DNA of 31,736 nucleotides from a virus, in the IMG/VR virus record IMGVR_UViG_3300032288_005505, positions 1 through 31,736 of that record. One strand, written 5' to 3'. The notes below the pieces were generated by a model. It had not been told where the DNA came from, did no database searches, and saw nothing but the letters and a program-made list of their open reading frames with translations. The position numbers and the translations under genes were made by a program. Shown piece by piece: positions 2,948-30,896 of this stretch; positions within the stretch are counted from its first letter, which is position 1; each line of letters starts with the position of its first letter.

Positions 2948-4591
2948 TTATCCACCAACAAAAGTGTTATTTCCCGTTGCAACTATTGTTCCCGTTTTTG
3001 AAACCCCAAAAGATATTGGATCGACAGTTGTATTAACACTTTCACATTGATTTTGACTAACAATTTGAACGTTTGTAATTGATATACTATCATTGATATT
3101 TGCAAACATTTGACAAGGATTTCCTCCGTTAATCACACTTACACTTTGTGTCACACTTCCATTAACACTATCATTACCTCCTGTCCCTAAAATTCTTGCA
3201 GTATACTGTCTAATCGTTGTGGTTGTTACGTGATTAGGATAATTACTTGTTACAGTACACGGAACAGTTGTTGCAGTTGCCGATGTTATAAAAGGACCTG
3301 TACTTGTTAAATATAGTCCTCCTCCTGTGGTTCCTGTTGATTGTGAATATGATAATGTTGGTGTTCCATTATTTGCGGTTCCATAAATTGATGTTGACGA
3401 ATGACTAATACTGAAATTAATTTGTTTTCCTATAGGTAATGCTGGCGATACCGTTACAACCCAATCATTAGTTTTTGTTTGGTTTGTGGATGTATTATTT
3501 AAGTTTGATGATGTAAATGTAAGATTTAAAGTATATATAGTAGGACTTATTAGTGAATCTAAAGTTACAATATCCACACCTATGTTACCCAAAATATCTT
3601 GGACATAAACCGTATAATTACCTTCTGACAAACCGTTAAAAGTATTTGATGCTTGATAAAATGCCGGATCGTTAACTAAGGAATATTGATATGGTGGTGT
3701 TCCTCCTACAACTGAAGTCACTATAATAGAACCGTTCGTACCTCCATTACAAGATGGTGGTGTGCTGGATATATTGGCATTTACAACCGCTTGACACTCC
3801 CCCTGAGTAACCACTATTGTTGGTTGTGGTATTTGTCCTGGGACACCTAATATCGACCAAACCCCTATTGGTGGGCTTTGTATTGTTTGAAGCTGCGGTA
3901 TTCCTTGTCCCGTCCAACCTAAAATTTTCCAAGTAGATAATGTATTATCAAAATAAATTGTTTGGTTACCTGTTGTTGATGTCCAAGAAGGATATCCGTT
4001 TATTGTACTTGCCGAGTAATACTGAGTTTGTTGTTGACTTTGTGTGGATGTACTTGTAAAACAAAGCCCTGAAGTATTAAGTATTGCTGGTACACTTGGT
4101 AAACACTCAGAACAAAGATCGAAAGGACCATTAGTAGTAACTGCAGAAAAATTACTATATGTTTGTGCGGTATACAATTCTAAACCTTGACTAACCCAAC
4201 AACCCAACTGAGAATTTAAAGAATAAACTTTACCTGATTGGTATTGTGAATTTATATTAGCTAAAAAATATATTTGATTATTTAAATCGTTACAATTTGC
4301 AAATTTTTCTAAATAAAATGTATCAAAACCCACATTACACGTTGTAGTAGCGGTAAAATCACCATAATAATCTATTACTGTTGCGGTATAATCACCTGTT
4401 TGTAAATTTGTTAAGTTTTGTGAATGTGAACCATTACTCCAATTTATTGTGTATGGAGGTGTTCCACCTGTAATATATAAAGTTATCCCACCATCATTTG
4501 TAAATGGTGTATATGCGTTTGTACTACTACAAATTAATCCCATCGGAAAAATGGTTAAAATATCACAAGTATTTCCAGTATATCCAGCCAT
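2948..4591 (-). CDS. SprB-repeat adhesin-like protein, 547 aa
   Basis: Two stretches match the SprB repeat pattern (Gly-Gly-Thr-Pro-Pro-Tyr, then Trp-Ser-Asn-Gly or similar, then Gly-x-Tyr-Thr-x-x-Val-x-Asp). The first is at about residues 34-80 (GGTPPYTINWSNG) and the second at about 275-345 (GGTPPYQYS to GNYTVYVQD). SprB is the gliding adhesin of Flavobacterium. Between them lies a Cys-bracketed segment ending LCSECLPS, which resembles modules in the 542-residue protein at 5436-7064. The C-terminal 200 residues are Thr/Ser-rich and unassigned. No signal peptide or type IX secretion tail is visible, which fits a virion component rather than a secreted host protein. It lies three bases after the 173-residue fibre gene and probably forms part of the host-binding apparatus. 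Confidence 0.6.
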   Translation of the reverse strand: MAGYTGNTCDILTIFPMGLICSSTNAYTPFTNDGGITLYITGGTPPYTINWSNGSHSQNLTNLQTGDYTATVIDYYGDFTATTTCNVGFDTFYLEKFANCNDLNNQIYFLANINSQYQSGKVYSLNSQLGCWVSQGLELYTAQTYSNFSAVTTNGPFDLCSECLPSVPAILNTSGLCFTSTSTQSQQQTQYYSASTINGYPSWTSTTGNQTIYFDNTLSTWKILGWTGQGIPQLQTIQSPPIGVWSILGVPGQIPQPTIVVTQGECQAVVNANISSTPPSCNGGTNGSIIVTSVVGGTPPYQYSLVNDPAFYQASNTFNGLSEGNYTVYVQDILGNIGVDIVTLDSLISPTIYTLNLTFTSSNLNNTSTNQTKTNDWVVTVSPALPIGKQINFSISHSSTSIYGTANNGTPTLSYSQSTGTTGGGLYLTSTGPFITSATATTVPCTVTSNYPNHVTTTTIRQYTARILGTGGNDSVNGSVTQSVSVINGGNPCQMFANINDSISITNVQIVSQNQCESVNTTVDPISFGVSKTGTIVATGNNTFVGG

Positions 4592-5435: not shown

Positions 5436-7064
5436 TTAACAATTTCCGTTTACAATACAAAATTCTGTTATCATACCGTTATTATCAACACTGTATATTT
5501 TACCACCGTATTTGATATACGATAAAATCACAGGTATAGTAAGTGTGGTATCTTCATAAATATAATTTCCACTCTGTAAAGGTAAAGTACTATATGAGCG
5601 GTAGAATGTCACGTCAGCACCACCGTTAGTTAATTCACAAACAGGACAAGACACACCAAACTCACCTTTCGCACTATACGTATTATATAATGGTGTTGGG
5701 GTTGGATTTGGTGTCAAACACTCTAAGCAAGTAGAATAAGTTGTTGCACTTGTGGTAGTAAACGCATTTATTGTACTCCAAATAAATCCAGCTGGTGGTG
5801 TGTAATTTACAAAATCACCAATATATGTGAAACAATTACCCGAAATATCTTTTAATATATCACCCTCTACTATATTTGTTGGTGGATATAGTGCCTGAAT
5901 TACCATAGAATTTGATGTACAAGAGGTAAACACAAATGATGTGTTTGGTGCGTATGTCGGTGTTGGTGTTGCTGTTGGTGTAGGTGTAGGTGTTGGCGTT
6001 GGACTAGGTGTCGGAGTAGGTGTTGGTGTTGGCGCAACACAATCTCCACAATCACCACTATATGTTAATGATATGAATGTTAATAAATCAGATGGACTAC
6101 CTAAAAAGTCAGAAACATAAGTTACACATTTAAATTCTCCATTTATGTTGGCTAAGAAAGTGGTTCCTGAAGTGATTGCCGAAGATTGGAAAATTAATGG
6201 ATCAGCAACAAAATAATTTTCACCATTTTCACAATCGTTTAACACTTTTATAGTTACACAATTAAAATAACCGCTATCTATAACAAACGTAACACTTTGA
6301 CCCGTTATTGGGTATGGATATACTGTGGGTGTAGGTGTTGGTGTTGGGGTAGGTGTTGGTATTGGTGTTGTACCACTGAATGATAATGAAACAGTAAACC
6401 CTGAACACAAGTCCGGAGTCGGTGGCGGTGTAGGTGTAGGTGTTGGCGTTGGAGTAGGGGTTGGTGTAGGGGTTGGTGTCGGTATATCACAAGCAACTAA
6501 TACATCAAAATCAAAAGAAGCACAAGGATCGTATGGTGTCGGTGCTGGTGTACATATACCTTGTGATAGTACTGATGCATCCAAATCAGGACAAGTGGCG
6601 TTCGTAGGATTAGAACCATAAAAAACACAAGTTCCCGTTAAAGAGTCAGATAAACACCAATTTGTTCCATTATAATGTAAATATCCAGGTTCTGTTCCTC
6701 CAGTCCAATAAGGGTATGTATTATAATTTCCTGCAACCACATAACTATCATTGTACCCACTATATGTTGAAATCGGTATATTAATACAAACTATGTTACT
6801 ACAACAATCACCAGTCAAACATAGTGAATCTGTACATCCCGTTTGTGTGGTATATACGCCATCAAGTTGTGTAAAAGATACTGATGTGAATCCTGATGTA
6901 AACGCAGATACAATAGTATAACAACCATCGGGAACTACAGGGTCACCTGAAAAATGATATGTTTGCCCAGTACTTGCAGTACCTCCAGTTGCAATCCAAG
7001 CCGCCTCATCAGTATAGTACTGATAACCTTCGTAACAACAACCTTCAAATAATAAATTAGCCAT
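5436..7064 (-). CDS. Multi-domain fibre protein with Thr-Pro linkers, 542 aa
   Basis: The protein is beads-on-a-string. A Cys-rich N-terminal domain (about residues 1-190) is followed by three long (Thr-Pro)n linkers at about 194-217, 233-248 and 344-370, and a shorter one near 452. Between them lie beta domains of about 80-100 residues. Two of these end in a C-x2-C pair (GDCGDC and STCLEC) just before the next linker. The last domain (VTFYRSYSTLPLQSGNYIYEDTTLT to a C-terminal NGNC) matches the end of the 907-residue protein at 11961-14684. TP linkers act as stiff spacers and are common O-glycosylation targets. The gene starts at an ATG at 7064 with no Shine-Dalgarno, behind a palindrome (7066-7079) and a TATTTAT motif. 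The two glycosyltransferase-like genes lie immediately upstream. Confidence 0.6.
   Translation of the reverse strand: MANLLFEGCCYEGYQYYTDEAAWIATGGTASTGQTYHFSGDPVVPDGCYTIVSAFTSGFTSVSFTQLDGVYTTQTGCTDSLCLTGDCCSNIVCINIPISTYSGYNDSYVVAGNYNTYPYWTGGTEPGYLHYNGTNWCLSDSLTGTCVFYGSNPTNATCPDLDASVLSQGICTPAPTPYDPCASFDFDVLVACDIPTPTPTPTPTPTPTPTPTPPPTPDLCSGFTVSLSFSGTTPIPTPTPTPTPTPTVYPYPITGQSVTFVIDSGYFNCVTIKVLNDCENGENYFVADPLIFQSSAITSGTTFLANINGEFKCVTYVSDFLGSPSDLLTFISLTYSGDCGDCVAPTPTPTPTPSPTPTPTPTPTATPTPTYAPNTSFVFTSCTSNSMVIQALYPPTNIVEGDILKDISGNCFTYIGDFVNYTPPAGFIWSTINAFTTTSATTYSTCLECLTPNPTPTPLYNTYSAKGEFGVSCPVCELTNGGADVTFYRSYSTLPLQSGNYIYEDTTLTIPVILSYIKYGGKIYSVDNNGMITEFCIVNGNC
5956..6033. repeat. Hexanucleotide-type repeat encoding Thr-Pro linker
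   Basis: On the plus strand this is a run of GGTGTN units; on the coding strand it gives alternating ACN-CCN codons. Wobble positions vary, so the run is imperfect. The unit is six bases, so gain or loss of units keeps the frame and changes only linker length. Confidence 0.85.
6325..6370. repeat. Hexanucleotide-type repeat encoding Thr-Pro linker
   Basis: A shorter run of the same GGTGTN unit, encoding about seven Thr-Pro pairs between two beta domains of the 542-residue protein. Confidence 0.85.
6414..6483. repeat. Hexanucleotide-type repeat encoding Thr-Pro linker
   Basis: The first linker in translation order. About eleven units, with one CCN-for-ACN change giving a Pro-Pro-Pro near its C-terminal end. 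Nearly identical in sequence to the other runs. Confidence 0.85.
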
Positions 7065-7120: not shown

Positions 7121-7912
7121 TCAACCAAAAATGTCAAAATATTGTCTCCAATCCGATTTAATTATGTTATATTCATCTTTATTTTCCAAATAGCAAAAAT
7201 CTAAATATTTTTCTTCACTACCCACATACCCTTTTTTTAAGTTTTCTCTAATAAAATTATTAAAAACAAATATTAGTTTATTAATTTTTTCATTGTTCGG
7301 TACAAGGATACAACCTCCGTGTATATATCTAAATTGTGAAACTAAATGAAATGGTTTATCATCAATTGTAAAATTTTCTTGATGACTAAAAAAAGTTATC
7401 TTATCACTAAACCCATTATTAATTTTTTTAATGTTCGGAAACCCTTTTTTTATTTTTGCATCAAAATCTCTTAATACACCAGCATCACACCAAATGAACA
7501 TATCGGAATTAAAATCTTTATCATCAATTGATTTTTTTATAAAGTAAAGTTTGTTAAATATTATTATATTATAAAGTGGTTTTGTCATTTCTGGAACATT
7601 GAAGTGTAGTCTACTCTTAAACTCGTCACTTTCCATCAAGGTTTTGGTTTCGTGGTAAAATAATTTATATGAATTTAAATTTTCTAAAACATCTATTTTA
7701 ATAATAGTTTTTTCTAAATTTGGATCAACGACTTTTCTTTGTTCTATTATAAAATTTTTAAATTTTTCTTCTGTGTATATTACCATATTTGTATCAAAAT
7801 ACAAAATATTTTTCATCCACACCATATAGGTATTATACGATATTTCATAATTATCCCACTTATCCCTACCAATATCAAAAAGAGCTGTTACTATAGTTGG
7901 GTTTGTTATCAT
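7121..7912 (-). CDS. HtrL/YibB family glycosyltransferase-like protein
   Basis: The 263-residue protein opens with TIVTALFDIGRDKWDNY, the signature start of the HtrL/YibB family (Pfam HtrL_YibB). It has a central IWCDAG motif at about residues 140-145, where an acidic D-x-x pair would bind a metal and sugar nucleotide in a GT-A-like fold. The length agrees with bacterial members, which occur in surface-polysaccharide loci. The biochemical activity of the family is not well established, so sugar transfer is inferred from its fold and context. The start ATG overlaps the stop of the upstream glycosyltransferase gene by four bases (ATGA), which implies co-translation. Together the pair interrupts a run of fibre genes, so their substrate may be a fibre protein or the host surface. 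Confidence 0.7.
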   Translation of the reverse strand: MITNPTIVTALFDIGRDKWDNYEISYNTYMVWMKNILYFDTNMVIYTEEKFKNFIIEQRKVVDPNLEKTIIKIDVLENLNSYKLFYHETKTLMESDEFKSRLHFNVPEMTKPLYNIIIFNKLYFIKKSIDDKDFNSDMFIWCDAGVLRDFDAKIKKGFPNIKKINNGFSDKITFFSHQENFTIDDKPFHLVSQFRYIHGGCILVPNNEKINKLIFVFNNFIRENLKKGYVGSEEKYLDFCYLENKDEYNIIKSDWRQYFDIFG

Positions 7913-9138
7913 ATCGTTCCTGTTATTTTATCTAACCATTCTTTTGATTTTGAATGTGCCCACACTGTCCAACTTTTTGGTTCAGAATAACTTAAAAATT
8001 CTCTTTTAATCACCACTTCGTCATTGGATAATAACCTAATTATCTCTTGTTCATTTTCGTCTTTTCTATATAATTCTTTGTTGTTTTCATCGTGAAATAT
8101 TACCGCCCAAAAGTCATAATCATTTTCAATGAAATTACTTTTGTTTAATTTTATTTCATATTTGATGGTTTTTAAAAAACTATTTTCCCACTCTTTTTCA
8201 TCTAAAATTACAGGATTAGGCGGATAGTGTTTTTGTAATGTATATTCTTGTACTGATCTTTTTTCAAACAAGACACCAGCATATTTTTCATAATCTCTCA
8301 AAGTTCTTTCTTTTCCTAAACCATATTTTCCGTCGTGCCCCTCTTGTTTATTACCGTCCATACCAAATAATTTACGGTTCAAAAGATGTGATTTTTCATT
8401 TTTTTTGTACCACTCTTTATCGTCATCCCATTGTTTTGTCCTACCTTCTCTTGTGTATTCATGCCAAAGAACAACTTTATGTGGGTGAAATAAATCATAA
8501 CCGTGAGTAAACGCCCTAACGGCAATCGATATTTCTTCTCCGTGAAAATAAAACTCAGGATTATGTTGTACTTCTTTTGAAAATTGTCCTAAAGTGAAAC
8601 AAAAGTGTGCAGAATAAAATCTTGATGGAATTGGTTCTGTTAAACTTTCCCAATTTGGTATCATTTCGGGTAAGAAAAATATTGCCCCTTCGGGAATAAA
8701 TTTATCAAAAACCATTCTCCAAGGCACTGTTACCCTCCCTTGTGGATCATTTTTAGGGTTATATGATGAAACATAAGCAGTTAATAGTGGTTTTTTATGT
8801 CCTTTTTCTTGTAATTGTTTAATCATACTGATTAATGTTTCATCCCAATTTTTTTCAAATCTCATATGAGAATCTATTTGAAGAGTATATTCTTCATTTT
8901 CGTATAATTGTTGTATTTGATTTCTTGCCCAACAAACACCTTTACTTTCACTCCAATTAAAATCTAATATTCTAAATCTATTATCTTTTGAAAACTCTTC
9001 TAAAGATTCTGTTTCATCGTGTTGCCAACAAATACCAAAAGTTAAATTTTCAGGGTATTTTGCCTTGTCAATACAATCTCTAATAGTAGGTAAAAGTTCG
9101 GGATCCCTGTAAGAAGCAATTTGTACAAATATTTTCAT
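7909..9138 (-). CDS. GlcNAc-transferase-like glycosyltransferase (GT60-like) with extra C-terminal domain
   Basis: The N-terminal 290 residues match the family that includes the Skp1-protein GlcNAc transferase (Pfam GlcNAc). IASYRDPELLPTI is at residues 8-20 and CWQHDE at 37-42. LQIDSHMRF carries the metal-binding D89-S-H91. HGEE is at 199-202 and WHEY at 225-228. These enzymes transfer GlcNAc from UDP-GlcNAc to hydroxyl groups on protein or glycan. The last 100 residues (from about PNPVILDEKEW) form an extra domain I do not recognise. It begins as NPV..DEKEW, ends in SWTVWAHSKSKEWLDKI and may bind a carbohydrate. There is no signal peptide or membrane segment, so it should act in the cytoplasm. 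It overlaps the HtrL-like gene by four bases. Confidence 0.75.
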   Translation of the reverse strand: MKIFVQIASYRDPELLPTIRDCIDKAKYPENLTFGICWQHDETESLEEFSKDNRFRILDFNWSESKGVCWARNQIQQLYENEEYTLQIDSHMRFEKNWDETLISMIKQLQEKGHKKPLLTAYVSSYNPKNDPQGRVTVPWRMVFDKFIPEGAIFFLPEMIPNWESLTEPIPSRFYSAHFCFTLGQFSKEVQHNPEFYFHGEEISIAVRAFTHGYDLFHPHKVVLWHEYTREGRTKQWDDDKEWYKKNEKSHLLNRKLFGMDGNKQEGHDGKYGLGKERTLRDYEKYAGVLFEKRSVQEYTLQKHYPPNPVILDEKEWENSFLKTIKYEIKLNKSNFIENDYDFWAVIFHDENNKELYRKDENEQEIIRLLSNDEVVIKREFLSYSEPKSWTVWAHSKSKEWLDKITGTI

Positions 9139-9202: not shown

Positions 9203-9937
9203 TTATATCCCATATCTATTTCTATCGGCTTCAAGGTTTTTTAAAACTTCATCAGCAGTTAGTGCCTTGTGGTATACCCTGACTATACCCATTTTACCTT
9301 CAAAAAGTTCACCAGAACCACAAAACCTACCTAAATGAAGTCTGCAAGAAATGCTTGAGGGGTTTAATATATCAGGTAAATATGGTTGTGAGTTTGATGC
9401 CTCAAGTACCCCATTTACATAAGCAAAAAGACCTGATTGACTGAAAACCGCAACAACGTGAACCCATTCATCGGCATTTATCAAATTAGATGCCGTTTGA
9501 ATATTATTAACGCTAGCCCCACTAGAGGAGTATAACCAAAATCTTCTATCTGAAGTAAATCTACACCTATAACCTAAATTCGCCCCCTTTCCTATTATAT
9601 TTGGGTCACTTGCAAATGATGATGGTTTAACAAATGCCTCTAAAGAAACTTCGTCAGTAAATAAATACGAATCTAATGTTGCGTCATTAGCAATATTTGG
9701 ATTACCATAAGTATCAATACGAACAGTATCATCAACACCATCATAGATTATACTACCACCCCCATCACTTGGATCGAAATTATTATTTGTATCAAAATTG
9801 ATAAAACTCGCTTTTGCAGCTAAAGTAGACAAATCATAAGCGGTTGTTGCACTTGGTTGGTAAGAGGTAGTATTTGCCGGATCCATAAAAAAAACTAACC
9901 CTTCTTTAACAATTTCTTTTGCTCCTACTTTTATCAT
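9203..9937 (-). CDS. LamG/concanavalin-like jellyroll domain protein
   Basis: The 244-residue protein has the pattern of the laminin G-like jellyroll (Laminin_G_3 type). GLVFFMDPANTTSY is at about residues 13-26, and the D-G-V-D-D strand near 65. EVSLEAFVKPSS follows, then DEWVHVVAVF near 155 and LFAYVNGVLE near 168. The tail (VRVYHKALTADEVLKNLEADRNRYGI) is typical of phage LamG-bearing tail proteins. Such domains bind carbohydrates and occur on tail-fibre and neck proteins of T4-like phages. It lies between a small unknown gene and the glycosyltransferase pair. A 64-base gap follows it with no clear terminator. A sugar-binding fibre tip or decoration is the likely role. Confidence 0.7.
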   Translation of the reverse strand: MIKVGAKEIVKEGLVFFMDPANTTSYQPSATTAYDLSTLAAKASFINFDTNNNFDPSDGGGSIIYDGVDDTVRIDTYGNPNIANDATLDSYLFTDEVSLEAFVKPSSFASDPNIIGKGANLGYRCRFTSDRRFWLYSSSGASVNNIQTASNLINADEWVHVVAVFSQSGLFAYVNGVLEASNSQPYLPDILNPSSISCRLHLGRFCGSGELFEGKMGIVRVYHKALTADEVLKNLEADRNRYGI

Positions 9938-11960: not shown

Positions 11961-14684
11961 TTAACAATTATATTGAGTTAAAATTACACCACTGTTATTA
12001 AATTGTATGATTGTTCTTGTACCAACAATCGGACAATCATTTGATAAATAGATGGTTCCCCAACCGCTGGAAGGTCCGTAATTAACCGCTAAATAACCGA
12101 TATTAGTAGTTAATGAAGAATCACCATACACAACATCACCAATATTTAAAGTTGCTCCTGTTGTATAAAATGTTGTATCACAATTTGTTTCCAAACAAGC
12201 ATTTACACTTGAACTTAGCGGATAGTTGTTACCAGAACCAAACCAAACACCTGCAGGTAGTGCCGGAGTTGGTGTCGGAGTTGGTGTTGGTGTAGGTGTT
12301 GCAGTTGGTGTTGGTGTGGCAGTTGGTGTTGGTGTCGGCGTAAACGTCGGTGTAGGTGTCGGCGTAGGTGTAGGTGTCGGCGTAGGGGCAAGTCCTCCAC
12401 AACTAATATAATATTCAACACTCAATTCCAAAGAAAAATCCGTTTCACCTAAAGGATCTACCCCACCCACACAATTTGATTCAATATATAAACTGTTGTT
12501 TAGTAAATCTATTTCATAAGAACCTATTTCAGGTATACCACTTAAAATAGTTTCTATTGCCAATTGCCAAGATGCATCATCCCAAACATTTAATTGCTCT
12601 ACATATGTGTTACCACTTAATGTTATTTGACAACTTACAATAGCATAATCTAAAATACAATTTGTGTATCCCGATGTTAAATCCAAAAACCCTTCACTAA
12701 CCATTTCAGGTATACCTCTTTTTGTTCCGCTTGTTGTAACAAAACTATTTTGACATATTAAATATTTAGTACCTCCAGTATATGTATTTACACCACAAAC
12801 AATATTGAAATTATGAATATTTGTACATCCGCTTGAATCTGTAACAAAAACAGCATAAGTACCTCCACTTAACCCTGTTACCAATGAACCTGTATTTGCT
12901 GATAGTGAACCTTGCCAATCATATGTAAATGGTGGGACACCATCATATATTAATACTTGAGCAGTTCCATCAATTCCTGTTACACAATTTGTTGTTATAA
13001 TATTACTAACTAAACTACCAGTATCCCCTATAATAATTGGTATTGATATAGTACAACCGCTAGCATCAACAACTTGGACGGTATATGATCCTGAAGTTAA
13101 GGAACTAAAAGTATGTGAAGAAAGGGGTAAATCAATTATTGATTGATTACTAATATTATTTATTAAATAATAATCTAAAGGTGATGTATAACCAGTACTT
13201 ACCTGAATACCTACGGTTCCGTTAGCTGAACCACAAGTACTAGGTGTCGTTGTTGCTGTAACTTGGAATTTTTCTTCATTTTGTATTGTAATTGGTTGTA
13301 TAAATTCACACCCACTAGATTGTCCTGAAATAGACAATAAATAGTTTCCGGAATTTAAATTACTGAAAGTTGTGTTTAAATTTGATGAATATTGTGTAGA
13401 TATTGAATTATTTGTAAGACCTGTAAGTTGAAATAAAAACGGGGCAATCCCTGTTAATACAATATTAATTTCACCGTCGTTTCCATTACAAGTTGTATTT
13501 GTAACTGTAGTGTTTATTATATCAAAACCGTTTAGAGTGGTTAGTGTGGCATTAACTAATAATGAACACAAACCAGCATCTTTTACTAAAATTTCATAAG
13601 CACCTGTTGGTAAATTTGGTACCGTGAATGTATTACTAAGAGTAAAACTTTGGTATCCTGTATTTGCAGATATAGTGTATGGTGCAGTCCCTCCTGTTAT
13701 TGTTACAGTCACCGAACCATCAGAATTAAAACAAGATGGATTTACTGATGTGATTAAACCAACACCGAGAGGATTGGCAACACCAACCGTTTCTGTTTGT
13801 GATGTTTCACAACCATAAAAATCAGTTACTGTTACTGTATATGAACCAACAGTCAATCCTGTTACCATTTGTGTAGTTTCACCATTGGACCATAAAAAAC
13901 TATAAGGACCATTTCCTGTTAATCCTGTAACAGACAACTTACCCGAATTTGGTACACACTCCGATGTGTTTACTTTCCATAAACCAAACGTTGTACCACT
14001 ACTTCCACTAACTACAACATTATCAGTAATGGCACTAACCATTCCATAATCATATACTACGGAAAAATAAATTCCTTCATCTAACCCTACTAAAGTGTAC
14101 GGTAATGAATTAACTTGATATGTTGAAAAAATAGTATTGTTTTTATAAACAATTAAATCATATGGAGCTGCGGTTGATGTAGCATTTATTGTAAACGTCC
14201 CATTAGAATCACCACAAGTAGTTCCATTAGTATTAGTGATGGATGCAACAAAACAATCTGAAATTTCAACGTTTATAAATAACTCATTGTTTTGTATTCC
14301 TAATGAATCGTTTAATCTAAAAACATATGTTCCTCCTGTCAACCCTGTAAATGTTATATCAGATGAACTAGTTTGTGCAGATAAACTTCCTGGCGTAATA
14401 TTGTCTATAGTGTATGGAGGTATACCACCAAATGATTGTATGGTAACTATACCGTATGGATTATCACATAAACCAGTTACGGTGAAAACATAACTGAGAG
14501 GCCCTTGATTACAATTTTGTGTACAAGTTGATCCACTATCCAAAATAACACCAATGGTAGATGCGGATGTTGAAGCAGATATACAAACATTTTCGAGTCC
14601 CGGCGATATCCCCGCTTGGACTAACCCACAACAGTCAGTAAAATAATAATAACCTCCGGATGTAAATCCTGTAATACAAGCCAT
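11961..14684 (-). CDS. Large adhesin-like protein with seven SprB-type repeats and Thr-Pro linker, 907 aa
   Basis: Residues about 72 to 625 contain roughly seven SprB-type repeats. Each has a Cys-x-x-x-(N/D)-G start, a GGTAPYT or [10 protein letters not shown] core, and a G-x-Y-x-V-x-V-x-D-x-x-G-C end. The clearest is at 243-300 ([20 protein letters not shown]). A non-repeat region follows to about 765. Next comes a long Thr-Pro linker (about 766-808) and a C-terminal domain of about 100 residues related to the end of the 542-residue protein. The repeats resemble those of the Flavobacterium gliding adhesin SprB. I place the start at the ATG at 14684, which forms a TAATG with the upstream stop; an in-frame TTG three codons earlier is possible but less likely. 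Probably a host-binding tail appendage. Confidence 0.7.
12264..12388. repeat. Hexanucleotide-type repeat encoding long Thr-Pro linker
   Basis: About 20 units of GGTGTN on the plus strand, the longest such run in the window. Scattered changes give Thr-Ala and Thr-Phe interruptions. It is near-identical in unit sequence to the three runs at 5956-6483, about 6 kb away, so recombination between the two genes is possible. Confidence 0.85.
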
Positions 14685-17665
14685 TATGAACAAACAATAT
14701 TAATATCTAAACCTACATTTAGGTCTAGAAGTTTATTAGTAAAATCAGCATAACAAGAAGAATTACTTATTGTTAAACTACCACTGGTAAAATAATAATT
14801 TAAACCGTATTGATATAAATACTGAAGTTTGTCATCTATAGCATTTATAACGTCAAAATAGGTTAATGGTGTTCCATTTACATTATCTATCGCATTTGGT
14901 CCATAACCTGTGTAAAAATATTCTTTAATTAACACTTCTTGTTGACTTGTTATTGGATCTAATAACCTAACTAAAATATACCAATTAGATTCTAAATTAT
15001 TAAAGTTACAATTAGTTAGGTTATTGGTTACACCTAAAACTGTTTCAGATAATATTCCAATTGGGTCAAATAAAGGTAAATCACAAACTAGTGTTTGATC
15101 AATACAATCATAGGTATAAGGTTCACCGTTATATGTACACGGAAAACATTCCACAGACAATGGTGTTATTGTACAACCTCTTTGTCTTCTCCAAACATAT
15201 TTTTGTCTATGAAAAATAGAGTTGTCCATTTTTTGTCCTGTATTCCATAGTGTTGTTGCCGGAACAAATTGTTCAACTAATCTAACCCAATAATCACCTA
15301 AACTTAATGTAAAATCTATCATTTTTTGATAGGTAAATTGGTTGTTTGGGATGTTCAAAGTTTGGTTACTATTAATATAGTTCCAAAAAATTGATTGTAG
15401 TGTTGGGTATCCCCCTGTTTTACCGTCTGAAATGTATTGTCTATTTCTAACGTTTATAAAATTATTATAAAAATTTTGAGCAAATTCAAAAAATGTTTTT
15501 TGATTTGGTTTTGGATCGATGTATGTCCAATCTATATTTCCTGGTGATGGGTATGGTGAGGTAAATCCACTATTAGGGATTGGGTAACCATAAGTTGCTG
15601 ACATATTCCATATGTCGTAGGTTATTCCTTGTCCCATATTTAAATAAACTTCCATATTTTTAACATTCAAGGAAAGTCTGTCATCCTCTAATATATAATT
15701 TGTCGCAGCTAAGTCCTGTAAATTTTTTCTTAATCCAACATCATTTAATGTCCAACTCTTTTTGTTGTCGATAACTTTTGTAATGTTGTACCCCAAATCC
15801 ATAAAAGGAAAAGAACGATATCTATCCAAATATTCTTTACCGTATGTAAAAGGAGTCAAAACAGAATTAACTACAGGTATTTGTGAATTCAAATCAGATG
15901 TTGCGTAACTAATTTGTTCAGGTGATCTGTGTTCAGGTGTTAGTTCAAACCAACCCGATCCTTTTTGGAAAAAGTAATCGTCGGTATATGTTGGTCTTTG
16001 TGGGTAACCCGTTTCTAAATTTATCGGGTAATCTTGAATGTCTGTATTAACATTAAATATTTGGCTACTTGTTGTAAACCCAGTGTACTGTACCCCCCAA
16101 ATTGAAAACGTATTACTCGATAATAAGGATGGGGTTTCAACATACTTTGTTCCACCCGATATTGTCATATATTCTTCAAAAAAATCATCTACAGATATTT
16201 TTTGATCAGCAACATAAATGTACTCATTAAATTCTATTAAGGCTTCAGGCGCACCAACCATCCTTAAAATATATTCAATAGATTTTCGAGTACCTTTTGA
16301 TTTAAATAAAAAAGCCGAATTTAGTATAAGGTTTCTAAAATATTGATAATTTAGCTCTGCTGGTGTTTGTTCTTTTGATTGTCCAGGATATATAACATCA
16401 TTTGTAGTAGTAAAAATAGAATCTAATAATTTTTCATTTGTTATTGGGGAAATGTCGGTATCCCAACCTAATGTTTTTGCTAAATTTACTAATAATTGTG
16501 ATGGAATGTCATTTCCAACAATATAATTAACGGAATTAATGTTACCTAACGAATCAATAAACTTTTTTGTCTCATCAAAACTTCTACCGTAAATTTGAAG
16601 TACGTTTTCTAATTTCTGATCGGGAGTATCAAATTCTTTTAAACTACCTGAAGTTAAAAATCTACTTATTAAGTTAGTTTTAAACTGATCCAATCTTTCA
16701 GATATTAGTTGTAGCGTATTCAAATAATTATCAAAATTTGAAGTGACTATGTCTAAATTCCAAACCCCGTCTAACTTCCAAGTAACTATGTTGTTAATCA
16801 TTATATAGTTACCATTACTATCATAATCAGGGTATTTAAATTTTGCCGTATACTTAGGAAAACCATTTCTATTTAACAAATAATCTTCAACCTCATCAAA
16901 CGCATCTTGGAATATTTTTTCAGTATTTAAATTGTTTGGTTTTAAAATTAGTGTTTGTGTTGATGTGGTTGAACTAAATGGTTTACCTTTAACTACTATT
17001 GGTATTGTACCTGCAGTCAATGTCTGAGTTGGGGTAAAATCAAGTATCGGGTATTCGGTTGTTAAGTCCGTGGTATAAAGTGAATATCCTTCATAATTTT
17101 TTGTCAAATTCCTGAAATCACTTATTTTGAATGGTCTTGTCGATATGTTTTGAGCGGCATTTACACTATAATCAATATCAAAAGGGTTTTTAAAAAATTG
17201 AACGTTAACATCAAATGATGTTTCATTTGCAACCGCATCATAAACTATATTAAACGCAGTAAAACCGGTATTTAAACTATAATTTTGTTGATCTATTTGA
17301 ATTGCCGCAGGGAAAAAATTAATAATTTTTGTTACTGAAGCTGAAATTCTTTTTTGTAATGAACCATATAAAGAAAAACTTGTAATTTGTGATAAGTCAA
17401 AATTTGGATATACACTGAAGTTTTTTTTGATTATAACTTTTGTTTCTTCAATTGTTCCTATATTTAGGTTTTCTAAATTAAAAGGTTCTGAAAAAACTCC
17501 TGTACCAAAACTTCTGTTAACTTTATCAAATACTGCAGTAGTATATTCAAAATTACCCTGTGTTAAACCACCACCATTTACTACTTGAAATCCGACTAAA
17601 TCGTCAGAAAAAGTACCCGATCCGACAGGTGCAGGTTTTGGACATATGAATTTATTTTGAGCCAT
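14684..17665 (-). CDS. Large baseplate protein with P2 gpI / T4 gp7-like segment, 993 aa
   Basis: Around residues 436-468, [20 protein letters not shown] followed by IEYILRMVG resembles the most conserved part of the P2 tail protein I family: an 'R-x-L-I-x-x-A-x-x-x-x-x-x-K-G-T' helix. That family corresponds to T4 gp7 and TssG in contractile systems. It is preceded by a Leu-x-x-Leu-G-W-D motif (near 400). The N-terminal 300 residues look beta-rich. The C-terminal 200 residues are Cys-containing ([19 protein letters not shown]) and may be a separate binding domain. The start ATG overlaps the stop of the 302-residue gene (TAATG), and its own stop overlaps the adhesin start the same way. Baseplate wedge membership fits the position after gp6. 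Confidence 0.55.
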
Positions 17666-28588: not shown

Positions 28589-30430
28589 TTATGAAAAGTC
28601 GACTGTAGTAAGATTTTTAACTCTCACTTTTATGTCTTTGTTTGGGAATCTAATTTGATAAATCTGATCGGGTTCAGCAAAGATTGTACTATCAATAAGT
28701 TCTATTTCTTTAGTCACAACACTAATATATCTTTGTGATGTTTCTGATGAAGAATATAACCCACCAACTTTATTGTAAATTTTCAAATCCGTAAGAGCAT
28801 TTACCCCTGATATATTTTGAACAATTGTTCTTATTTCAGAAACATTAACATTTTGTCCAAGCTCTCTATTTGAAGGTAACATATAATTATTCACACTATT
28901 AATTACCTGTGTAATAACATCTCCTTGTGAACCAGGACTGTCAAGAACAATAAAAAATTCAAATTCTAAATCAATAACTTTAGCAACTTCAATCGAGATA
29001 TAGTCGTTTATCATTCTATATTTTGACAAGTATGTTGCTAAATTTGTTTTTAGATTGTTAGAGACGGTTTGAGTTAAAACCCCCGTACTATCATAAGATA
29101 ATATTTTTACTGAAATTTTATTGTTAACTTCAGATATAGCAACTTTAGCAGGTGCCCCAAAATTACCTGGCATTGTATCAATTAAAGATTTGTAATCATT
29201 AATAGTAACCGCCCTTTTTTGTGCCGAAAAATTATATGTCACCATATTTCTTACTTCTTCAACACTTGGTTGGTTTGCACCTCCAATTGCTGCGGTGACA
29301 TTATTTACTCTCAACGATTGAATGACATTGTTGTTAATAATTTCTGATGGGCCGTTTACCACAAAATCAACTAACCCAACTTGATTAATTGCACCAACAC
29401 CTATGTTACTTGATAACCCACCACCTGTTCTATATTGAACAAAAAGGGTAGTGTTTGGTTTTACAGTGAGCCCAAGTCCTATATTATTTTGAAAGTTTTG
29501 TAATTTTAAAGGTATTCCTGTAGTTGTAAATTGTCTTAATTGTTCATCAGGTGTAACAGTACCCGCACCAAATTGGATTTTAAGAAAACCTTCAGGTGTG
29601 TATTCAGTTATGAATCTATTATCTGTTTTTATATATCTACCAACCTTTACCCCAGCTTCATCAACAGGTTTTGTTGGGTCTTCAATAAATACAGTATCTT
29701 CAACCAAAGCATCCACTTCATACCACCTATTAGTGGAACTTGCAAATTCAGAAAATGAGGGTGTAGCCTGATAAGTCGTACCTTCTTTTTGAATTATAGA
29801 TGTTACTCCTAAAACATTTTTATCAGGTAAAAAGAAATTATAAAAAGGTATTACGTCTTGTGGATTAATTACTTTTTTAAAAACTTGGGTTGTACCATTA
29901 ACCACAACTTCTCTTTTAGTTATAATATAACTTGTTACTGAATTATTATTACCGTTAAAAATCGGAACTTTTGTTCTATTAATAAATCCTTCTCTGTTAA
30001 ATTGTGATGAAAAATCTATGTCATACACTGTCTCAAAAGTGGTTCCTCCCCCGTTAAATTGTGTGCCTGTTCTTAATATACCTAAATACCTAACATCTTC
30101 AGCATCCCCAAAAGCCGGTACTGTAATTGAAATGTCAACTATCGCAACAGAAGGTCTGAAACCAGGAACTTTAAGTCCGTAAGTTCTTGCAATATTAAAT
30201 ATAGATGATCTTTGTTGAGCATATTGTAGTACTGTTTCTTGTATACTTCTATCTATATGAAAATTTAAATTGTCTCCAATTGCTGCGTTTAAATCCATTA
30301 AAACGGAAAAAACCGATGCGTCATTAAAATTTTGAATTAAGTCGGGATAATACTGTCTTGTGTAATCAATAAGATCGTTTCTTAACCCTTCAAAATCTCT
30401 TTCAGTATATGATATTTTTCTATTTGCCAT
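28589..30430 (-). CDS. Baseplate wedge protein, gp6/J-like
   Basis: The 613-residue protein matches the baseplate J / T4 gp6 family in layout and key segments. The start is ISYTERDFEGLRNDLIDYTR, then FNDASVFSVLMDLNAAIGDN and YAQQRSSIFNIARTYGL, as in gp6 of T4-like phages. The conserved QKRAVTINDYKSLIDTMPG segment lies in the second half. T4 gp6 has 660 residues, so the length is usual. In T4, gp6 dimers join neighbouring wedges into the baseplate ring around the central hub. It starts at an ATG at 30430, four bases after the gp25-like gene, with no Shine-Dalgarno but an AT-rich leader. Confidence 0.9.
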   Translation of the reverse strand: MANRKISYTERDFEGLRNDLIDYTRQYYPDLIQNFNDASVFSVLMDLNAAIGDNLNFHIDRSIQETVLQYAQQRSSIFNIARTYGLKVPGFRPSVAIVDISITVPAFGDAEDVRYLGILRTGTQFNGGGTTFETVYDIDFSSQFNREGFINRTKVPIFNGNNNSVTSYIITKREVVVNGTTQVFKKVINPQDVIPFYNFFLPDKNVLGVTSIIQKEGTTYQATPSFSEFASSTNRWYEVDALVEDTVFIEDPTKPVDEAGVKVGRYIKTDNRFITEYTPEGFLKIQFGAGTVTPDEQLRQFTTTGIPLKLQNFQNNIGLGLTVKPNTTLFVQYRTGGGLSSNIGVGAINQVGLVDFVVNGPSEIINNNVIQSLRVNNVTAAIGGANQPSVEEVRNMVTYNFSAQKRAVTINDYKSLIDTMPGNFGAPAKVAISEVNNKISVKILSYDSTGVLTQTVSNNLKTNLATYLSKYRMINDYISIEVAKVIDLEFEFFIVLDSPGSQGDVITQVINSVNNYMLPSNRELGQNVNVSEIRTIVQNISGVNALTDLKIYNKVGGLYSSSETSQRYISVVTKEIELIDSTIFAEPDQIYQIRFPNKDIKVRVKNLTTVDFS

Positions 30431-30434
30431 TCTA

Positions 30435-30896
30435 TTATAAATTAATAATTATAAACTCTCTACTACCAAATGGATTGTTTTCATCTATGTATTCAATACG
30501 AATTTTTGCAGTATACTCCTCCGTGTTTGCACCTGGCACCCTATAAACAGGTATATCAAATTGTTCAGGTCTTAAATCACCAACCGACATTTCAGATTCA
30601 GTATAGGGTTCAACAACAACATTTTGTATTGTTAGATTTGGTATAAACTGTTTTACGGACTCTTCAATTTCTGTTTTAATACTATCAAAAGTATCTCCGT
30701 CAAGTGGTTCGAATATATACTCATATAGTCTTGTTCCAAAATTTGGTAAATAGTACCTACTTCCTTTTCTTGTTAAAAGTAAATGTACCAAATCTGTTCT
30801 GATTTCTTCTTCGGTGGTTTCAGACAATGAAAGATATTTTCCAACTTGACTTTGTCTAAATGGAAAATTAATACCATATGTTATACCGTTTGCCAT
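30435..30896 (-). CDS. Baseplate wedge protein, gp25-like
   Basis: The 153-residue protein matches the GPW/gp25 family. It has an N-terminal extension with INFPFRQSQVGKYLSLSETT, then EEEIRTDLVHLLLTRKGSRY, the family core 'LLT-x-x-G-x-R-x-x-x-P-x-x-G-(T/S)-x-L', followed by YLPNFGTRLYEYIFEPLD. The C-terminal part ends ENNPFGSREFIIINL. T4 gp25 (132 residues) sits at the wedge core where the sheath is anchored and is conserved in all contractile systems. It is the first gene after the terminator at 30941-30958, so a promoter probably lies in the 47-base gap before it. Confidence 0.92.
   Translation of the reverse strand: MANGITYGINFPFRQSQVGKYLSLSETTEEEIRTDLVHLLLTRKGSRYYLPNFGTRLYEYIFEPLDGDTFDSIKTEIEESVKQFIPNLTIQNVVVEPYTESEMSVGDLRPEQFDIPVYRVPGANTEEYTAKIRIEYIDENNPFGSREFIIINL

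Follow-up and report, generated by a model that had tools for sequence, protein, structure and literature searches.

The locus raises the question of what two adjoining glycosyltransferase-like genes do among the fibre genes of a phage tail. The window, the whole stretch of DNA analysed here, is a 31.7-kb fragment of a large aquatic phage, comprising positions 1–31,736 of the IMG/VR record IMGVR_UViG_3300032288_005505. Its tail genes lie on the minus strand. Two baseplate wedge genes, located upstream of the glycosyltransferase cassette in transcription (at higher coordinates), mark the region as a virion tail module and are followed in transcription order by long fibre/adhesin genes with profile matches to SprB repeats and a Laminin_G_3 domain. 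The cassette itself is transcribed in the order GT60, HtrL and a protein with Thr-Pro (TP) tracts, with 56 bases ahead of the TP gene. The features of the region are:

28589–30430 and 30435–30896, minus strand: baseplate wedge genes
11961–14693, minus strand: second TP-tract protein, 910 residues, with SprB repeats; TP tracts at 12264–12389; possible second acceptor
9203–9937, minus strand: Laminin_G_3 (lectin-like) protein upstream of GT60, in fibre context
7909–9138, minus strand: GT60-type (PF11397) glycosyltransferase, 409 residues; DSH at residues 89–91; β-rich C-terminal domain at residues ~310–409
7909–7912, minus strand: four-base ATGA stop/start overlap of the GT60 and HtrL genes, read from the sequence
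7121–7912, minus strand: HtrL_YibB-family protein, 263 residues, predicted GT-A-fold glycosyltransferase; W-x-D-A-G at residues 141–145
5436–7064, minus strand: TP-tract protein, 542 residues, with three long TP tracts; probable acceptor candidate
6426–6482, minus strand: TP tract of 19 residues in the 5436–7064 protein, mixed codons
6324–6359, minus strand: TP tract of 12 residues in the same protein
5973–6035, minus strand: TP tract of 21 residues in the same protein

An earlier note on this DNA had described the GT60-like and HtrL/YibB-like genes as overlapping by four bases and lying directly upstream of the gene encoding the TP linkers. The open reading frames, the profile matches and the ATGA overlap all bear this out, and the minus-strand gene at 5436–7064 is indeed the next one downstream. 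SprB repeats occur in fibre-like proteins at 2948–4591 and 11961–14693; such repeats are typical of Bacteroidota gliding adhesins, and their presence suggests a Bacteroidota host. A RuvC-like Holliday junction resolvase (106–714) adjoins the fibre module.

The 7909–9138 protein belongs to the GT60 family. It matches PF11397 with an E-value of 4.5e-73, scoring 247 bits where the cut-off is 21, and it also matches phrog_24687 ('glycosyltransferase') over its full length with 535 bits. The DSH motif is invariant in all 36 aligned GT60 sequences, in which many other positions are kept too. The predicted structure has a pLDDT of 92, and its top 31 PDB fold matches identified by Foldseek are polypeptide GalNAc-transferases, with E-values down to 1e-10; the superpositions are loose (TM about 0.5), so the match argues for a kinship of fold and does not prove specificity. 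The two hallmarks of the family, a GT-A fold and a conserved D-x-H/D metal/nucleotide motif, are thus represented by the GalNAc-transferase-like predicted fold and by DSH. PDB sequence searches gave no significant match. Neither the GT60 nor the HtrL protein contains a transmembrane stretch, which in the case of GT60 would fit a cytoplasmic enzyme that modifies virion proteins before assembly. Characterised GT60 members are polypeptide α-GlcNAc-transferases acting on Thr of mucin repeats or Pro-flanked peptides, with KPPTTTTTTTTKPP as an assay peptide (PMC3769586, PMC8724618).

The TP content of the two candidate acceptors is not accounted for by composition. The 5436–7064 protein contains 32 TP dipeptides, compared with a mean of 9.7 and a maximum of 18 in shuffled sequences, and the 11961–14693 protein contains 19, compared with a mean of 7.2 and a maximum of 16; as these counts exceed every shuffle of both proteins, chance was rejected. 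An origin as DNA slippage repeats was rejected as well, the codons being mixed and the reversed motif almost absent. The mixture of synonymous codons indicates that the tracts are kept at the protein level. The family of the 542-residue protein was found in 25 GT60 loci, and its members carry TP tracts in all 25.

GT60 relatives are encoded in at least 337 viral contigs. In a non-redundant set of 32 loci (<90% identity, at least 5 kb on each side), which are not phylogenetically independent, a (TP)3 tract, or TP3, lies within 10 kb of GT60 in 28, within 5 kb in 24 and within 1.5 kb in 19. Thr/Pro-rich tracts encoded together with the transferase are what a mucin-type system calls for, and the control loci described below are near zero in this respect. 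The earlier note had proposed checking whether related phages keep the enzymes and the TP linkers together, and had named frequent occurrence of the gene pair in phages lacking such linkers as an outcome that would speak against its idea. The 28 loci answer the former in the affirmative. The latter is not the pattern observed, the exceptions being the 4 of 32 loci with no TP3 within 10 kb and one 219-kb GT60 contig (L050) from which TP3 is absent throughout. Over eleven long records the TP tract nearest GT60 is closer than if randomly placed, with a Fisher combined p of 5e-4 that is optimistic, since some of the records are related to one another and fibre genes tend to sit together in any case.

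TP3 is found in none of 13 HtrL-bearing loci of the Bellamy type, which lack GT60. Nine large cultured phages without GT60, hand-picked and non-random (KVP40, P-SSM2, phiKZ, G, GAP32, Atu_ph07, PTm1, S-SKS1 and T4), contain one TP3 motif in total and Bellamy contains none, whereas the cultured GT60 phages XacN1 and RAS14 contain 29 and 19, respectively. Approached from the opposite direction, PF11397 is present on 8 of 20 long contigs picked solely for a TP4 motif; the mean number of TP motifs is about 23 in these eight versus 7 in the other twelve. A set defined by a neighbouring 993-residue gene divides by clade. The close clade has both GT60 and TP tracts; in the distant clade TP tracts are present and GT60 was seen on 2 of 15 checked fragments, whose lengths of about 30–100 kb do not allow absence to be proved. 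A look for another transferase near the TP genes of the GT60-negative clade turned up just SprB-type and unknown proteins. This TP-positive distant clade with few visible GT60 genes is the main point against strict dependence. A further set, built around a DNA polymerase gene that lies nearby and including many stretches that end near the cassette, comprises 24 stretches with GT60, HtrL and TP, 11 with GT60 and HtrL without TP, 24 with TP and no GT60 in the stretch, and 21 with neither.

The HtrL_YibB protein stands in a looser relation to the tracts. The 7121–7912 protein matches PF09612 (E-value 3.7e-24, 86 bits, cut-off 24.1), yet its 91.4 bits against the YibB equivalog model TIGR02192 fall far below the cut-off of 264.9, and it is therefore not YibB itself. 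Its model (pLDDT 93) adopts a GT-A fold with XXYLT1, LARGE1 and LgtC as nearest structures, at E-values of about 3e-5 to 5e-4 and with loose superposition, so that the protein is probably a sugar-extending transferase. No HtrL relative is present in 11 of 80 GT60 loci, some of which end at the contig end, and in five of the 11 (L006, L008, L011, L015 and L052) the TP gene directly follows GT60; an obligatory unit of GT60 and HtrL was rejected on these grounds. Elsewhere HtrL takes other forms: a distant version of about 560 residues with an extra C-terminal domain in some GT60 loci (for example L023 11842–13503 and L033 11926–13608), and a 753-residue version in L017 fused to a CmcI/rhamnosyl-O-methyltransferase-like domain. 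GT25, GT10, GT11-like, DUF3431 or CmcI/rhamnosyl-O-methyltransferase-like genes are interposed in many GT60 loci. In Synechococcus phage Bellamy (L297), which has neither GT60 nor TP tracts, HtrL lies within a nucleotide-sugar operon together with epimerases, a nucleotidyl transferase, UDP-glucose dehydrogenase, a carbamoyltransferase and a methyltransferase.

GT60 is thus the constant partner of the TP proteins, and HtrL_YibB is an optional member of a variable glycan cassette headed by GT60. Of the pair as the earlier note framed it, the link between GT60 and TP tracts stands. HtrL does not hold its place as an equal partner: it is optional, has other glycan enzymes beside it or in its stead, and occurs without TP tracts in cyanophages that lack GT60.

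The same arrangement is found in bacteria, where GT60 is rare. Of 390 genomes of the order of Jiulongibacter, seven encode GT60, three of them with strong matches. A TP protein directly adjoins GT60 in Saprospiraceae, Jiulongibacter, Planctomycetaceae, Prosthecobacter and Desulfobacterales records; the enrichment of TP neighbours has a p of 0.011 from small numbers, and some of the MAG contigs may be viral. On the Jiulongibacter sediminis chromosome (L392 7942–15145) a TP-repeat gene lies between two divergent GT60 genes, and a carbamoyltransferase and a large HtrL relative come next; this amounts to the phage cassette in bacterial form. In Trinickia terrae two GT60 genes lie near the gene (L407 16619–18967) for a VgrG-like type VI spike protein that matches Phage_GPD and Gp5_trimer_C and contains a run of about 25 TP repeats; this protein is possibly a glycosylated secretion spike. 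A protein combining a crAss-type muzzle C-terminal domain with a long TP tract was observed near GT60 at L410 3321–5246, on a contig binned as Gammaproteobacteria that is probably phage.

We infer that the GT60 cassette probably O-glycosylates the TP tracts of virion proteins in a mucin-type manner. Five lines of evidence lend support to this assignment: the co-occurrence and proximity of the genes, the TP-poor controls without GT60, the adjacency in bacteria, the GalNAc-transferase fold match, and the glycoproteins of XacN1 described below. The idea of the earlier note that the two enzymes might glycosylate Thr of the TP linkers accordingly gains independent support for GT60, short of proof, and loses the equal share that it gave to HtrL. 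GT60 would act as a cytoplasmic polypeptide O-glycosyltransferase that places the first sugar, by family probably α-GlcNAc, onto Thr of TP tracts in the phage's own fibre/adhesin proteins. The GT-A-fold HtrL_YibB transferase would add a further sugar next, and in relatives GT25, GT10, DUF3431, O-methyltransferase and carbamoyltransferase enzymes could variably lengthen or cap the chain. The outcome would be mucin-like virion linkers that may be stiff, protease-resistant or antigenically variable. More tentatively, such glycosylation might be widespread in phages and bacteria, with GT60 recognising TP tracts on phage fibres, type VI spikes and bacterial surface proteins while exchangeable downstream enzymes diversify the glycan, giving phages a changeable sugar coat of their own making.

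Few phages are known to glycosylate their virions, and little is understood of how the modified residues are chosen. If GT60 reads TP tracts, it would be possible to predict target proteins for hundreds of large aquatic phages from their sequences, and GT60-type mucin initiation, so far described in protists, would extend to phages and bacteria. The cultured GT60 phages XacN1, RAS14 and CM1, one of which has deposited proteomics data, are directly testable systems.

The virion could instead be glycosylated at sites other than TP, such as Ser/Thr-rich fibre domains or the small upstream adhesin-like proteins, the TP tracts being just rigid linkers. The GT60 phages without a nearby TP tract and the same-clade contigs with TP tracts and no visible GT60 agree with this, and large adhesin-rich phages could share TP tracts by happenstance; we nevertheless consider it rather unlikely, given that TP proteins are recurrent neighbours in unrelated phages and bacteria and that the known GT60 and fold-matched GT27 enzymes act on Thr in Pro-rich peptides. 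The target might also lie outside the virion. Prophage O-antigen transferases change the host surface, for example against superinfection, and HtrL_YibB, GT9, GT25 and GT10 are families often located in LPS loci. A cassette in which HtrL_YibB has GT9, GT25 or GT10 neighbours could by this token alter the LPS or capsule of the host, for instance as a superinfection block, and the nucleotide-sugar operon around the Bellamy HtrL points the same way. Such a role is improbable: peptides are the substrates of GT60 and of its fold neighbours, the two window proteins lack a membrane segment, their genes sit within a virion fibre module, and phages with HtrL alone have no TP tracts.

Two further readings alter the chemistry. 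Protists have a related cytoplasmic transferase, the Skp1 enzyme, that acts on hydroxyproline, and its kinship with GT60 raises the case of GlcNAc being added by GT60 to hydroxyproline of the TP tracts, as in Dictyostelium. The hydroxyproline glycan of Skp1 has been described (PMC8724618). A prolyl hydroxylase does not regularly accompany the phage enzyme: PF13640, the sole oxygenase family searched, is present in 3 of 10 GT60 phage records and in neither XacN1 nor RAS14, and on this distribution the hydroxyproline route was mostly rejected and is very improbable. To our knowledge GT60 is not among the DNA glucosyltransferase families, its gene lies among fibre genes, and no gene for base hydroxylation was seen in the window, which together leave DNA glycosylation against restriction the faintest of the readings. 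It owes its mention to phage glycosyltransferases being well known for this role (see the discussion in PMC12619734).

A literature search combining GT60 and phage returned no paper, and searches on mucin-type glycosylation in phages or on TP linkers returned nothing relevant. The window HtrL resembles enterobacterial HtrL/YibB in its PF09612 match across most of the protein and differs in falling far under the equivalog cut-off; we know of no activity of the enterobacterial proteins that could be transferred to relatives. Large aquatic phages have been reported to share four core glycosyltransferases whose target is unknown (PMC12619734). In mycobacteriophages, as far as the work of Freeman et al. 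2023 is represented in the text citing it (PMC12619734), phage-encoded transferases place glycans at the C-termini of capsid and tail-tube subunits; the likeness lies in phage transferases serving virion proteins, and the difference in the fibre TP tracts and GT60 proposed here.

The protist GT60 enzymes (Trypanosoma cruzi mucins, Dictyostelium) share with the window enzyme the Pfam family, a GT-A-type predicted core and a candidate acceptor rich in Thr and Pro whose gene is adjacent or close by. Unlike them, the window enzyme is of phage/bacterial type, soluble, equipped with its own β-rich C-terminal domain and encoded in a virion fibre locus, and its acceptor is putative. The GT27 polypeptide GalNAc-transferases of animal mucin-type glycosylation, which act on Thr/Ser of mucin-type peptides, are the solved structures whose fold comes nearest to the GT60 model; the PDB sequence search gave no significant match, no ricin-type domain was recognised in the window GT60, and the donor probably differs.

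A cultured counterpart is Xanthomonas phage XacN1. Its host is a proteobacterium, and its GT60, ORF334, is just 45% identical to that of the window. The two have in common GT60, an HtrL-like gene and encoded TP tracts. The XacN1 cassette comprises GT60, a carbamoyltransferase, two unknown genes and the HtrL-like ORF330, with a GT9 gene nearby, and TP motifs occur in ORFs 174, 180, 190, 232–237, 325, 350, 372 and 384. In the available text of the XacN1 report, at least two virion glycoproteins are described and ORF328 and ORF334 are suspected by its authors (PMC5852040); the raw virion proteomics data are deposited as PXD008065.
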